Positions 56,302 through 63,013 of a DNA stretch of 64,000 nucleotides are shown here, piece after piece (position 1 is the stretch's first letter; each line of letters opens with the position of its first letter). The DNA comes from an uncultured Candidatus Poseidoniales archaeon. Lineage in GTDB: Archaea > Thermoplasmatota > Poseidoniia > Poseidoniales > Poseidoniaceae. A program made the position numbers and the translations under genes. The notes below the pieces were generated by a model. That model saw only the letters and a list, made by a program, of their open reading frames with translations. It did not search any database and was not told the DNA's origin. The stretch covers positions 1-64,000 of the forward strand of contig CAJJAP010000002.1 in assembly GCA_905182185.1 (NCBI GenBank), read 5' to 3'.

Positions 56302-56507
56302 ACCCTAGAGACGTTCGGGCTCAGCCTTCAATGCTACCCCTAGAAATGCTTCTTTTGACGATTAAGTGAAGGTTACAATCTTTACCAAAATAAGAATTAC
56401 AAAGCGATTTAATGTATTTTGGCGAGCCAAATAATCTCAAACATTTGGCAACTATAGGCCTAGATTTGAGATGGGTTCAAGTGCTACGCAATATCACGCT
56501 TAGATAC

Positions 56508-59303
56508 ATGGCGAATGAGTTGAAGTCCATACTGGTCGTAGTATTGTTGGCTCTGACAATAATGCCCCTCTCCGTTTCGGCAGAAACTAGCGGCGGTATT
56601 CAGGCCTCAACATCGACTTTGAGCATCCTGCCGGCTTCCCCTGAAGCCGGTGACTCAATCACTATTTTGCTAACACTTTACAACTCTCAACAAACTGATG
56701 CCTTCGATGTAAAATACTCAATTTACAAAGATGGAACCAGTTCCGGAGACAGACTTGCAATGAACACAGTCAATATCCTGGGTGAAGAAACAGTTGATGT
56801 TAGTGCAACATGGAATTCACTGACCGAAGGAAATCACAAAGTGTGGGTGATATTTGAGGCTAACCAAGACACTGAAGCATCATTTTACCTAGATTTCGTA
56901 GTGACAGGACTACCAAACCTGAGAATTGTTGAAACTGCTTTATCTCCTGCGAGTGATATTAAATTCGGAGATAATGTTACAGCATCAACTCGGATAACCA
57001 ATATTGGTAGTGTTGATGCATCAACAAGTACCCTTCATTTTTCAACATCCAGCGGCGAACAACAATTTTTGCCAACCCCAGCAATAGCCGCTGGCCAATC
57101 TCAATGGGTTAATACTACATTTATTGCACCGCAAAGTGGAACTCATACGATTTACTTTAATCCAGATTATTATGAAGAAGTACACGAAGCATCGGAGTTA
57201 AACAAGATTGTTGAGTTATCTTTGTTAGTTGAGACTCTGATGGATGTCTATCATATTGGTGACCTAACAGTAACTGTTGAAGAAGGGGCCTTAGAAGGGC
57301 CATGGACTATTGAAGGAACATTGGGTAGAACCAATGGGACTGGAACTACTGAAGTCCCGCTACGTCTAGAGATTCCAACTGATAATGGTGGAATACTGAT
57401 GATGCCTCCATTTACTGTAACTCTCTCCGGCGCAGGATATGCAGAAAAGTCATGGAGTCAAGTACTTACAATTAATGACCTATCTTCTCTGAGTGATGGT
57501 TTACATATTGTGGCGGCCCAAGTAGATCCATTCAATTCAGGCGACTTTGTTCAAGAGTCAACAAACAATGATCGAATCGCAGGCCAATTATCTATTTACC
57601 CGATTCCAGATATTTTTGTTGATGGAGATGCAATACCTTCTTCTTCATCAATTGCTTCAGGTGAAGATGTAACCTGGAGAGTTAGTATTTCCAATATTGG
57701 TGATATCCAAGTGCGAGGGCAAATAGTCTATATTTGGGAAGGCGTAGAAAGTGAATCCGGCTGGATATTTATCGATGCAGGTGCAACTCAACCATGGGAT
57801 ATTACTTTGACCACATTAATTGGTTCACATTCAGCAGAATTCGAAGCACAGTGGGTTCCACATCCAACTAGTTGGGATAGTAATCCATTGAATAGTAAAG
57901 CAACAGGTAGTATTTCTGTTGAGGCTCCGTTGAGGTTACAATGGGTCTATACATCTATTTCATTGACTGATATAACTGGAAATACAGCCTCTCAACCATT
58001 GCAAAGCGGAGATTCATACACAGTGTCAATCAATATGACAAGTATTGAAACTGGTAATGTGTCCTTCAACTGTTTTGATGGTTCTGGAACTCTGCTAGAG
58101 ACCTTGTTTGTAGATATAGAAGTTAGATCTGACAGAGCTACAGTTTCCTGCAACTTCATCGCTGCATCACCAATTAGTACAATCCGAATTTCACCATCAG
58201 ACATCACAGTTGCTAGCACCTTCACACGCGCTTTCCCAACAGTTGCTACCGATGGGGGAACAACAGATGCAGAAACATCTGCCAAGGGTACAATGACTTT
58301 GCTTGGAGGCGGTGTTATTGGATTGATTGCACTATTGGTGGTAGCATATATTCTTACTAGAGAAAGAGAAGAAGAAGTGGAAAGAGATATTTTCGATTAT
58401 TGTCCATCATGTGATGGTGAATTAGAAGGGGTCGAAGACCGCTGCCCTCATTGTTCATTCAACCTTAAGAAAGCCAGAAAGCAATTCCACGATTGCCATG
58501 AATGTACAGAATCTATTCCGGATTTGATGGAAGATTGCCCGTATTGTGGTACTGCGCAAGATGTATCGTCATTCTTTGAGCAACGACAAAAAAGAGTTGT
58601 AGAAAAGAAAGAACTTGTTGCTATTGAGGAAGAGGACGATGAAGATGAAATCGTTACAGGTGCAGAAGACTTCGCATCCACTGTTCAAGAATTTGGTTAT
58701 GATGAAGAGGATCTCGGTCAAGAGTGGGATAAGAACTTGAAGAGTGCTGAAGATGAAGTTGAAGCTGCATACGATAGAAAACATGCAGGTGAGTTGGCGC
58801 TTGAAGGACTCACAGATGAAGAGATTGAAGAATTGAATAACGAGGTTACGACGACACTCAAGAGCGCTAAAGATGCCGCAGTTGGTGTCGGAATCGAAGA
58901 GATGCTCAGCGGTCGTGAAATTCATGCTCACTTGGATGATGGGCAAGATCTATCGGCAAGTGATGCAGGGATTAGGGAGCAAATATTCAACGTCACAGGT
59001 GAGGATGGAGTTCTACCAGGGGATAAGTTTGAAGTTGGAATGAATGTAACCGATAATTCATTAGCAGGAAATGAGGTCAAAGATTCAACAGCAGATTTCT
59101 CCTTTGAAGAGGACGAAGCACCACTTTCAGCATCAACTAAGTCGGATACAGAAGTTGCAACTGCAAGGGAAGCACAGAAGCCAAAACGTCGCGCCCCTAA
59201 GCGAAAAGAAGAAACCCCACAGGTAGCCGAATGTGGTGCATGTGGAGCAGATCTTCCAGTTGAAGCAAATGAATGTGGTACTTGCGGTGCAAAGTTCGAA
59301 TGA
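56508..59303 (+). CDS. CARDB-domain envelope protein with membrane helix and multiple cytosolic zinc ribbons
   Basis: The start at 56508 is preferred because it begins a signal peptide (ELKSILVVVLLALTIM, cleavage near VSAETS); the frame opens earlier, at 56412. The outside part carries CARDB-like domains (ITNIGSVDASTSTLHFS, EEVHEASELNKIVEL) of about 100 residues each. A membrane helix is at about 595-617. The cytosolic part of about 310 residues has two tandem ribbons (CPSCDGELEGVEDRCPHCSF; CHECTESIPDLMEDCPYCG), an acidic helical middle and a final ribbon (CGACGADLPVEANECGTCGAKFE). Function unknown; an outside-in link is inference. Confidence 0.85.
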   Translation: MANELKSILVVVLLALTIMPLSVSAETSGGIQASTSTLSILPASPEAGDSITILLTLYNSQQTDAFDVKYSIYKDGTSSGDRLAMNTVNILGEETVDVSATWNSLTEGNHKVWVIFEANQDTEASFYLDFVVTGLPNLRIVETALSPASDIKFGDNVTASTRITNIGSVDASTSTLHFSTSSGEQQFLPTPAIAAGQSQWVNTTFIAPQSGTHTIYFNPDYYEEVHEASELNKIVELSLLVETLMDVYHIGDLTVTVEEGALEGPWTIEGTLGRTNGTGTTEVPLRLEIPTDNGGILMMPPFTVTLSGAGYAEKSWSQVLTINDLSSLSDGLHIVAAQVDPFNSGDFVQESTNNDRIAGQLSIYPIPDIFVDGDAIPSSSSIASGEDVTWRVSISNIGDIQVRGQIVYIWEGVESESGWIFIDAGATQPWDITLTTLIGSHSAEFEAQWVPHPTSWDSNPLNSKATGSISVEAPLRLQWVYTSISLTDITGNTASQPLQSGDSYTVSINMTSIETGNVSFNCFDGSGTLLETLFVDIEVRSDRATVSCNFIAASPISTIRISPSDITVASTFTRAFPTVATDGGTTDAETSAKGTMTLLGGGVIGLIALLVVAYILTREREEEVERDIFDYCPSCDGELEGVEDRCPHCSFNLKKARKQFHDCHECTESIPDLMEDCPYCGTAQDVSSFFEQRQKRVVEKKELVAIEEEDDEDEIVTGAEDFASTVQEFGYDEEDLGQEWDKNLKSAEDEVEAAYDRKHAGELALEGLTDEEIEELNNEVTTTLKSAKDAAVGVGIEEMLSGREIHAHLDDGQDLSASDAGIREQIFNVTGEDGVLPGDKFEVGMNVTDNSLAGNEVKDSTADFSFEEDEAPLSASTKSDTEVATAREAQKPKRRAPKRKEETPQVAECGACGADLPVEANECGTCGAKFE

Positions 59304-60031: not shown

Positions 60032-61219
60032 TCAAATCAATGCTTCAGTACATGCATAATTGCGTGAGCAGTTTTTACATTTCCCTGGTCTTTCATGGTT
60101 TCTTTTGGGATCGTTGTGAACCATTAATCTCTGGACTTCAGCAATAGCATCGAATAACATTGATTTATTTGCATCATCCCATGGGATTTGATGTAAGTCC
60201 TCATTTCCATATCTTAGCACTCCATAAGGAGTGGCTCTTTTAGTACTAATCTCTACTAAATGCAAATACGCCAAAACTTGTATCTTGTGAGAGCGGTGAG
60301 GGAATTTTGGTACTCTTCCAGTTTTCTGTTCAACCGGAATAAATTCGCCATCTACTATCACTATCTGGTCTGGCCTTCCTCGAAGGCCAGTTATTGGATC
60401 TTTCAATAGACTCGTAGAATCTTCATTGTCAGAATATGCGATTTCTGTATTTTCTTTCAATCCAACAATTTCTCTTGCGATTTCTAATGAATTTTCTACA
60501 AGTAGAGCTCTTTGCAACTGCCAAGAAGCGAATAATGTCCAAGACATTGCTAATACCGCAAACAAGAAACCCGCCTGACTTTTGTTCTCTGCACCTATGA
60601 GGGCCATGGAATGCAGAGCCAATGCTATTGATGCTAACAATAATGCCGCCTCTATCCGACCTGCTTCAAACCATCCACCGATGAAACCTTGAGGCTGTAA
60701 TACCGATTCAAGATGATATGTATCGCTCTCTTGAAAATTACTTTTTGATTTTGCAATCGTATCCGTCCATCCAATCCATTCTCTCCATGGCAGATAAACT
60801 GCTACAATTCCAGTAATTAGGAGAGATAATGCCCAGAGTGCCATGTATCTAGCAATTGATTCGGTGGTGTAAGCAGCATCTTCTATCAAAGAAAAAACGA
60901 TAGCATCTATGATGAATACTAAGATGACACCAAACCACCACGACCAGATGACCATGGCTCTTCGTAATTTAGCGTGTTTTTCTTGATAGTCTTTTACTTG
61001 GCCGTGAATTGTGGCGTGTTTTTCGAACCCAGCTGTAATTGCTTCACCTTGGCCACTTTTCCCTTCTCGCGCTAGTGACCAAGAGAGAGGACAATATTCG
61101 TGGCGTTCCAAATCGCTGGCACTAACTCTCAATGGTTCACCAGTTTTTAATCGCCAAACACCGTCCTCATGGAGTTCAGCGCCATTAAATTGGTCTGATT
61201 GAGGAGAATCTTGAGCCAT
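60032..61219 (-). CDS. Cas4/RecB-like PD-(D/E)XK nuclease with inserted membrane helices
   Basis: A 395-residue protein (ATG at 61219; positions below count from the TTG at 61222). The N-terminus has SASDLERHEYCPLSW (Cys44), then FEKHATIHGQ (about 67-75). The core nuclease motifs are GRPDQIVIV (Asp285), PVEQKTG (Glu298, Lys300) and QVLAYL (Gln315). The C-terminus has KCKNCSRNYAC (Cys382, 385, 391), so with Cys44 the four Cys of a Cas4/AddB-type [4Fe-4S] cluster are present. Between about 90 and 240 are four hydrophobic segments (about 91-112, 126-145, 188-210, 216-238), which would put the nuclease on the membrane. There is no CRISPR array or cas1/cas2 nearby. Biological role unknown. Confidence 0.8.
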   Translation of the reverse strand: MAQDSPQSDQFNGAELHEDGVWRLKTGEPLRVSASDLERHEYCPLSWSLAREGKSGQGEAITAGFEKHATIHGQVKDYQEKHAKLRRAMVIWSWWFGVILVFIIDAIVFSLIEDAAYTTESIARYMALWALSLLITGIVAVYLPWREWIGWTDTIAKSKSNFQESDTYHLESVLQPQGFIGGWFEAGRIEAALLLASIALALHSMALIGAENKSQAGFLFAVLAMSWTLFASWQLQRALLVENSLEIAREIVGLKENTEIAYSDNEDSTSLLKDPITGLRGRPDQIVIVDGEFIPVEQKTGRVPKFPHRSHKIQVLAYLHLVEISTKRATPYGVLRYGNEDLHQIPWDDANKSMLFDAIAEVQRLMVHNDPKRNHERPGKCKNCSRNYACTEALI

Positions 61220-61334
61220 CAATTATTTCCCCCGTATGCAGCGTGGGGGGTGGGCTCTTTCTTTTATTCTCCGCCGTCACGATTATGGCGATTTCACTAA
61301 ATACTGAAATTCTGAAAGTCTTAGTCAGTGCGAA

Positions 61335-62077: not shown

Positions 62078-63013
62078 ATGTTTTGCCATAATATACACGG
62101 AGGGTCTAATATTTCTAAATCCTCATCCAAACAATTTTTCCCAATTCGTGCAATAAAGTTCGGATTAAGAATGCCTGGGAGATTTTTCAACCATTACATT
62201 ATCTATCCACTTTTGGATAAAAAAATTGCTAACAGCGAATTAGATCTTTACGTCCATGACAAGGAAAGAGGATTGCTAAGGGAATTAAATACCGGAGAAC
62301 GCGTCAATTGGAGTCTCGAATCTGGCAAAGCATGCGATGCAGTACCTTGGTTAGACAGAATTAATCCGCTGGTAGATAAAAATGATATTGTATTTGATGT
62401 CGGGGCAAATATAGGCGTTGTCTGTCATTGGTTCGCCCATAGATGTGCCGTAGTTCATGCTTTTGAACCACATCCAGGTAACTTGAACACAATAAAAAAT
62501 CAAATCGATTTGAGAAATATGCAAAATATTTCACTACATTCAATTGCGCTTGGAAAAGAAAATACGACAATGAAATTACATGTAAAGGGATTTCATGGCC
62601 ACCATTCTCTCGGTGATGTGAATAATAGTCCGACAATTGACCAAATCGATGTTGATGTTAAGTGCCTTGACGATGTTGCCAAAGAACTTGAAATCAATCA
62701 CATCAATTTCCTGAAAATAGATGTAGAAGGCTTTGAGGTTGATGTATTACTCGGAGCACAACAATTACTCGCTAACAAGCAAATTGATTATGTTCTTTTT
62801 GAATTACAAGATTCAATTCTACATTCTATTAATCGCACTTCACGGCAAGCATTACAGCCATTATTTGATGCAGGGTACGATATTATTGATCTATACGGTA
62901 AATTAGTGGATGCCAATAATTCTGAGCCAATCGCAAATGGCGATTATTTGGCTTGTATCAATGGCGCTGAAACTGCTAAGAAATTGGGGTCATCGCCCTT
63001 TGAACTGATTTAA
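62078..63013 (+). CDS. FkbM-family methyltransferase
   Basis: A 311-residue protein of the FkbM type, which methylates sugars or polyketide-like hydroxyls using S-adenosylmethionine. FDVGANIGVV (about 106-115) is the AdoMet motif I, HAFEPHPGNL (about 127-136) motif II and FLKIDVEGFEVDVLLGAQ the family signature. The N-terminus of about 95 residues is basic and not conserved. In envelope-rich archaea such enzymes often modify surface glycans; no glycosyltransferase is beside it here. ATG start, SD unclear. Confidence 0.88.
   Translation: MFCHNIHGGSNISKSSSKQFFPIRAIKFGLRMPGRFFNHYIIYPLLDKKIANSELDLYVHDKERGLLRELNTGERVNWSLESGKACDAVPWLDRINPLVDKNDIVFDVGANIGVVCHWFAHRCAVVHAFEPHPGNLNTIKNQIDLRNMQNISLHSIALGKENTTMKLHVKGFHGHHSLGDVNNSPTIDQIDVDVKCLDDVAKELEINHINFLKIDVEGFEVDVLLGAQQLLANKQIDYVLFELQDSILHSINRTSRQALQPLFDAGYDIIDLYGKLVDANNSEPIANGDYLACINGAETAKKLGSSPFELI

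Follow-up and report, generated by a model that had tools for sequence, protein, structure and literature searches.

The window analysed here, a stretch of 64,000 nucleotides from an uncultured Candidatus Poseidoniales archaeon (contig CAJJAP010000002.1 of assembly GCA_905182185.1), carries on its minus strand a complete ORF of 395 amino acids that begins with the ATG at 61219. Its features are collected in Table 1. Residues are numbered from this ATG; an in-frame TTG at 61222 gives numbers that are one higher. An earlier sequence-only reading of the locus counted from the TTG, so that the catalytic and cysteine residues it listed are real although each of its numbers is one too high.

That reading likened the protein to Cas4 and RecB-like nucleases, and two Pfam models agree with it. 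The protein scores 36.6 bits against PF01930 (Cas_Cas4; cut-off 22.7) and 31.1 bits against PF12705 (PDDEXK_1; cut-off 22), both matches being confined to residues 258–391, and it narrowly misses the NCBIfam cas4 equivalog TIGR00372, with 60.1 bits at a cut-off of 65. Each of the 38 proteins in a diverse alignment matches the cas4 model at E ≤ 0.01, and the PF01930 cut-off is also passed by relatives with two, four and eight membrane helices and by members whose gene is split. The 395-residue protein has no Pfam match to a helicase domain, to DUF4041 or to GIY-YIG. Judged by its sequence, it is a PD-(D/E)XK nuclease of the Cas4/PF01930 family, and is neither a CRISPR Cas4 nor a SNIPE protein.

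Table 1. Positions of the gene and its predicted features in the window, with the basis for each.
Feature	Position	Strand	Basis
Putative membrane-inserted Cas4-type nuclease	60032..61219	-	ORF; PF01930 and PF12705 above cut-off
Cys43, first of four presumed Fe-S ligands, motif YCP	61091..61093	-	Orthologue conservation, alignment A3
His68 and His72, in helix running into TM1, N-terminal half of nuclease domain	61004..61018	-	Conservation
Predicted membrane helix 1, ~residues 92–111	60887..60946	-	Hydropathy; AlphaFold helix 59–111
Predicted membrane helix 2, ~residues 124–144	60788..60850	-	Hydropathy; AlphaFold helix 119–142
Predicted cytosolic loop of ~45 residues between hairpins, conserved GGW-x3-G	60653..60787	-	Spacer length, conservation
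Predicted membrane helix 3, ~residues 190–208	60596..60652	-	Hydropathy; AlphaFold helix 188–208
Predicted membrane helix 4, ~residues 214–236	60512..60580	-	Hydropathy; AlphaFold helix 213–252
PD-(D/E)XK core, Asp284, Glu297, Lys299, Gln314	60278..60370	-	Conservation; Cas4 structure alignment
Cys381-x2-Cys384-x5-Cys390, three presumed Fe-S ligands, RNHxRxGKCxxCSRxxxC	60050..60079	-	Conservation, alignment A3

The conserved set comprises Cys43, His68, His72, Asp284, Glu297-x-Lys299, Gln314, Cys381, Cys384 and Cys390. Among 91 distinct Poseidoniales sequences, Glu297, Lys299, Gln314, both histidines and the three C-terminal cysteines are 100% conserved; the figure is 98.9% for Asp284 and 97.8% for Cys43 (89 of the 91 have Cys, and the other two have undetermined letters). 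The catalytic D, E-x-K and Q are nearly invariant across the phylum too, and in the phylum alignment (A3) Cys43, the equivalent of His68 and the C-terminal Cys trio are invariant; the C-x2-C-x5-C arrangement and the motif RNHxRxGKCxxCSR are present throughout the phylum's intact members. Both the complete PD-(D/E)XK set and the four Cas4/AddB-like cysteines described in the sequence-only reading are thereby borne out, and the catalytic Asp, Glu and Lys, whose loss from orthologues it had named as a ground for doubt, are kept. The best PDB matches of the family profile are the Cas4 structures 4r5q, 8d3l and 4ic1, with which the PD-(D/E)XK core aligns. On the strength of these residues, the protein is very probably an active nuclease, and its four cysteines would be the ligands of an Fe-S cluster.

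Solo-Cas4 proteins are mostly inherited vertically and have no known role (Hudaiberdiev et al. 2017, PMC5704561). The present family resembles them in its PD-(D/E)XK core, four cysteines, RecB-like fold, mostly vertical inheritance and lack of CRISPR context, and differs from them in having membrane hairpins inside the nuclease domain and in its two-gene forms. The text of PMC5704561 mentions no membrane forms: 'transmembrane' and 'insertion' are absent from it, and its single 'membrane' names another protein. No description of a membrane-inserted Cas4-type family was found in the literature searched. Our conclusion is that the family forms a branch of solo-Cas4 that is integral to the membrane. 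What is new here is its spread across the phylum, an insert of two, four or eight helices that grew by duplication, the predicted cytosolic placement of the nuclease, the split genes and, in one family (f27), linkage to smc and scpA.

CRISPR Cas4 proteins (4r5q, 4ic1, 8d3l) have the same order of catalytic motifs and the same C-terminal Cys cluster, but they are soluble, are of approximately 200 residues and work with Cas1–Cas2, whereas a search for cas1 in 142 genomes of the order found none (the control genomes were positive). A role in CRISPR adaptation was rejected on this ground, and the earlier statement that the gene has no CRISPR context stands. Characterised members of the Cas4 family have an uninterrupted soluble nuclease domain (which is not part of the profile definition), in contrast to the insert of two to eight helices described below; an annotation as a Cas4 domain only, in the CRISPR style, hides this different architecture. 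AddB, Dna2 and the UvrD–Cas4-like fusions (PF12705) contain the same Fe-S PD-(D/E)XK module; the present protein differs from them in consisting of nuclease and membrane helices only, without a helicase domain.

The membrane insert

Membrane helices and their sidedness were called by hydropathy and charge rules. His72 and the core are separated by four hydrophobic segments, with family-averaged hydropathy above 1.6 at approximately residues 94–110, 130–142, 194–206 and 222–232. Helix 4 is the weakest in the window's own copy, in which three helices are called at a strict threshold; at that threshold, four are called in 83 of 147 Poseidoniales copies and three in the other 64. The loop between the two hairpins is longer in Poseidoniales than elsewhere (the spacer is of 239–247 residues, compared with 196–200 in other four-helix families), and G182, W183, G187 and E190 are invariant in its region.

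AlphaFold2 predicts four long helices in the window protein, all outside any soluble fold, which speaks against the possibility, raised in the sequence-only reading, that the hydrophobic segments are folded inside a soluble domain; the model is of mediocre quality (mean pLDDT 65, with the catalytic region below 50). Helices 59–111 and 213–252 continue from the nuclease halves directly into TM1 and TM4. A Foldseek search with this model gave matches to Dna2 and Cas4 only, none of them significant. When the phylum profile is aligned with Cas4 4r5q, it matches in two segments; the gap between them is of approximately six residues in the Cas4 chain (107, 114) but of 157 positions in the profile, which indicates that the helices occupy a short link of the soluble Cas4 fold. 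In a two-helix member (L173), the PF12705 model spans residues 15–272, on both sides of the insert. The hydropathy peaks and the two-piece alignment support the earlier placing of four predicted helices within the nuclease domain.

In Poseidoniales, mean numbers of K+R are 3.4 before TM1, 5.75 between TM2 and TM3 and 2.5 after TM4, as against 1.3 and 1.1 in the TM1–TM2 and TM3–TM4 loops; in other families, they are 1.9–3.3 at predicted inner segments and 0.6–0.8 at outer loops. This positive-inside pattern would place both nuclease halves in the cytosol. One genus (L127, 5020–5364; L128, 5062–5406) has an extra domain of approximately 90 residues within the predicted outer TM1–TM2 loop, which has no Pfam family above its cut-off and contains a Cys pair and N-G-T/S sequons, as expected for a loop outside the cell. 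We consider it highly probable that the architecture is membrane-inserted with the nuclease on the cytosolic side.

A membrane position was taken in the sequence-only reading to suit DNA uptake, and Poseidoniales are heterotrophs, which would also fit a nuclease that processes or degrades imported DNA, whether for uptake or for nutrition. However, none of 142 genomes of the order was found to carry ComEC, the active site would lie inside according to the charge pattern, and no uptake genes are adjacent. Uptake in the usual sense is accordingly not upheld, and we regard the processing of imported DNA as most unlikely.

Distribution and hairpin duplication

The deep homologue search covered this archaeal phylum, and the genome families searched are referred to by f-numbers. 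Of 60 relatives, 40 have the gene, as do 87 of the 146 genomes of the order, and the family profile was matched in 244 of 390 genomes, representing most families of the phylum. The protein, which had been taken for a singular case, is a member of a phylum-wide family in which the insert ranges from two to eight helices and the gene is split in three families. The usual form is of approximately 330 residues with four helices; a four-helix form occurs in a complete genome of 1,486,778 bases. The gene is missing from several small-genome genera of the order and from most of family f17, which implies that it is not essential. For an origin from a virus or plasmid, the search covered viral contigs (with two different profiles) and phage records, and relatives were found in neither.

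The number of helices in the insert is two, four or eight; a sister family in the same class has two only, in a protein of approximately 280 residues, and eight are seen in three members. When aligned with each other by hhalign, hairpins 1 and 2 of the four-helix form stay in register over 49 columns and score 55 (E 1e-12), as against scores of 17 or less, and E of 0.002 or worse, for reversed and block-shuffled controls. The hairpins are repeats of each other, which indicates that the insert grew by tandem duplication of one hairpin. On the explanation that we favour, a membrane hairpin was inserted into a solo-Cas4 between the N-terminal helix, with the first Cys and the His residues, and the catalytic core, and was duplicated later; the two halves of the nuclease, both cytosolic, would be joined through the membrane bundle.

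Three unusual members may be recorded here. An eight-helix member (L178, 3929–5884) has a TRAM (RNA-binding) domain fused at its C-terminus. One genome (G003:C6) has, besides an intact copy, a second one that is broken into pieces in several frames (L131, 5697–6906). Another (G410) encodes a paralogue of the C-terminal half only, with an N-terminal hydrophobic helix of its own (L208, 1234–1848), beside an intact four-helix copy in the genome.

Naturally split genes

In 30 of the 32 genomes examined from three families, the gene consists of two overlapping or abutting ORFs (loci L189–L204 are among them). The counts are 14 of 14 in f16, 12 of 13 in f27 (the thirteenth yielded the C half alone) and four of five in f6. 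At all 16 split loci that were read closely, ORF1 has a Cys and TM1 and ends 0–6 residues after TM1, and ORF2 starts with TM2, followed by the G[KR]PD core and CxxCx5C; the cut therefore falls at the hairpin's outer tip. Assembly error was rejected as the source because the split recurs in 30 genomes of three families, single-contig ones included. Three of the f27 genomes are single contigs that are 97–99% complete, and the split, smc-linked form is present in complete genomes of the phylum. The family tree, weak in its deep nodes and with long branches, is compatible with either one or several fissions. Annotation pipelines may mistake such genes for fragments. Each chain is left by the fission with a membrane-spanning helix, which would fit a pairing of the two chains in the bilayer.

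The stop of ORF1 and the presumed start of ORF2 often overlap by four bases (ATGA, TTGA or GTGA), with ATAA or ATAG at some f16 loci. As a separate observation, ORF2 would need ATA as its start codon at some f16 loci. Alternatively, the two ORFs might yield one protein by programmed frameshifting: a -1 frame relation is common to most splits, a Shine-Dalgarno-like stretch (GGTGAT) lies just ahead of the junction at six of seven f16 loci, and at four f16 junctions the overlap position has ATA and no usual start codon. Against this, no slippery heptamer common to the junctions was found, several junctions have ATG, TTG or GTG overlapping the stop, and others have an ATG one base past the stop or an in-frame stop (L196). 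Re-initiation through the four-base overlap fits better, and we consider frameshifting distinctly improbable compared with the production of two chains.

Gene neighbourhoods and possible roles

In Poseidoniales, 147–148 of approximately 152 loci (a figure in which some places are counted twice) show the same setting: rpsB on one side of the gene and a lipoprotein gene on the other, each encoded on the opposite strand; the rpsB neighbour in the window is confirmed by PF00318. In the sister family, the gene precedes NTPase_1 and Trm1 genes. Other neighbours of family members include trm1, glmS, abce1, tyrS, MJ1316 and an eRF1-like gene. In one group of families, TPD (PF14811, a CDIN1-type nuclease) is directly upstream on the same strand at L164, L167, L168, L170, L174, L176 and L179, in one case overlapping; it was rejected as an obligate partner because TPD is widespread without the nuclease, for example in those genera of the order that lack it. 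Partner genes differ from clade to clade, and no single pathway is therefore fixed by them.

A different setting is seen in f27 (L219–L223 and eight more genomes), where smc, a ScpA-like gene, the split pair and tyrS form, in this order, a tight run on the same strand, with fen1 and radB opposite. The smc gene lies 0.8–1.2 kb from the nuclease gene in 13 of 13 genomes and belongs to the TIGR02169 equivalog (i.e. it encodes the chromosomal SMC); the scpA-like gene has a profile match to PDB 6ivh (E 1e-4). As a general partner smc-scpA was rejected, because no such linkage was found in the remaining families that were checked. Wadjet (MksBEFG; PMC10586767) likewise has a nuclease encoded beside SMC, but the f27 run has the chromosomal SMC and a Cas4-type, predicted membrane-bound nuclease in place of the Toprim nuclease JetD.

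With rpsB, trm1, MJ1316, abce1 and an eRF1-like gene among the neighbours, and a TRAM domain fused to one eight-helix member, it might be suggested that the protein is an RNA or ribosome-associated membrane nuclease and not a DNA enzyme. The substrate of the characterised Cas4 and AddB-type relatives is DNA (PMC5704561), and the f27 setting, with smc-scpA, fen1 and radB, is DNA-related. Both points argue against the suggestion, which we take to be very unlikely.

The main rival to a role in DNA maintenance is the surveillance of entering DNA, in which the nuclease would be anchored to meet incoming viral or plasmid DNA and the anchor would keep the chromosome safe. A cytosol-facing nuclease anchored in the membrane is the design of SNIPE (DUF4041 and GIY-YIG), in which a nuclease deprived of its TM is toxic to the host (PMC13190303), and the predicted layout here is similar. 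Added to this are the absence of cas1 from the order (0 of 142 genomes), the over-representation of solo-Cas4 in small CRISPR-less genomes, for which defence or repair was suspected (PMC5704561), and the loop domain of approximately 90 residues found in one genus, which could be a sensor. However, SNIPE has an unrelated nuclease fold, a single TM near the N terminus and a patchy distribution as a defence gene, whereas here the nuclease domain is broken up by the helices, and the gene is carried by almost all members of whole families and passed on without change of locus. Its neighbours are rpsB, smc-scpA, trm1, glmS, abce1 and tyrS, and the loci examined showed no cas genes, defence genes or mobile elements next to it. 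Defence at the membrane, which the sequence-only reading had put forward, thus keeps a place among the candidate roles but is not favoured by such stable, vertically inherited housekeeping neighbourhoods, and we rate entry surveillance as unlikely.

Maintenance of DNA at the membrane is favoured by the vertical inheritance, the housekeeping neighbours and the smc-scpA run. The assembled Fe-S nuclease would be kept against the inner membrane face, where it would cut or trim the DNA that reaches it, most likely DNA ends or branched DNA at a membrane-attached nucleoid. Taken as a whole, the explanation that we judge best, a cytosol-facing, membrane-tethered Fe-S nuclease inherited vertically for DNA maintenance, has in our estimation a somewhat better than even chance of being correct; for a housekeeping role as such, we would put the chance at a little below even. 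This is of interest because few archaeal nucleases with no known role are as widespread as the solo-Cas4 proteins, and the membrane form gives a concrete hypothesis of action at the inner face and occurs in tractable hosts; its anchored and sometimes split form points to a DNA-processing role there that has not been described.

A bolder proposal, which we put forward tentatively as rather doubtful, is that of a phylum-wide membrane machine, in which nothing but the membrane helices joins the nuclease halves (which in several lineages would be separate chains that pair within the bilayer) and the halves act with SMC-ScpA or on entering DNA. If this were true, it would represent a natural split nuclease and the first link between condensin, the membrane and a Cas4-type nuclease.

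Two other genes of the window may be mentioned in their own right. A 963-residue protein with CARDB and zinc-ribbon domains is encoded at 56412–59303, adjoining the lipoprotein gene, and is conserved at 142 Poseidoniales loci. On the other side, between rpsB and a dihydrouridine synthase gene, lies a gene for an FkbM-type methyltransferase (62078–63013), with similar neighbours at only 17 loci.
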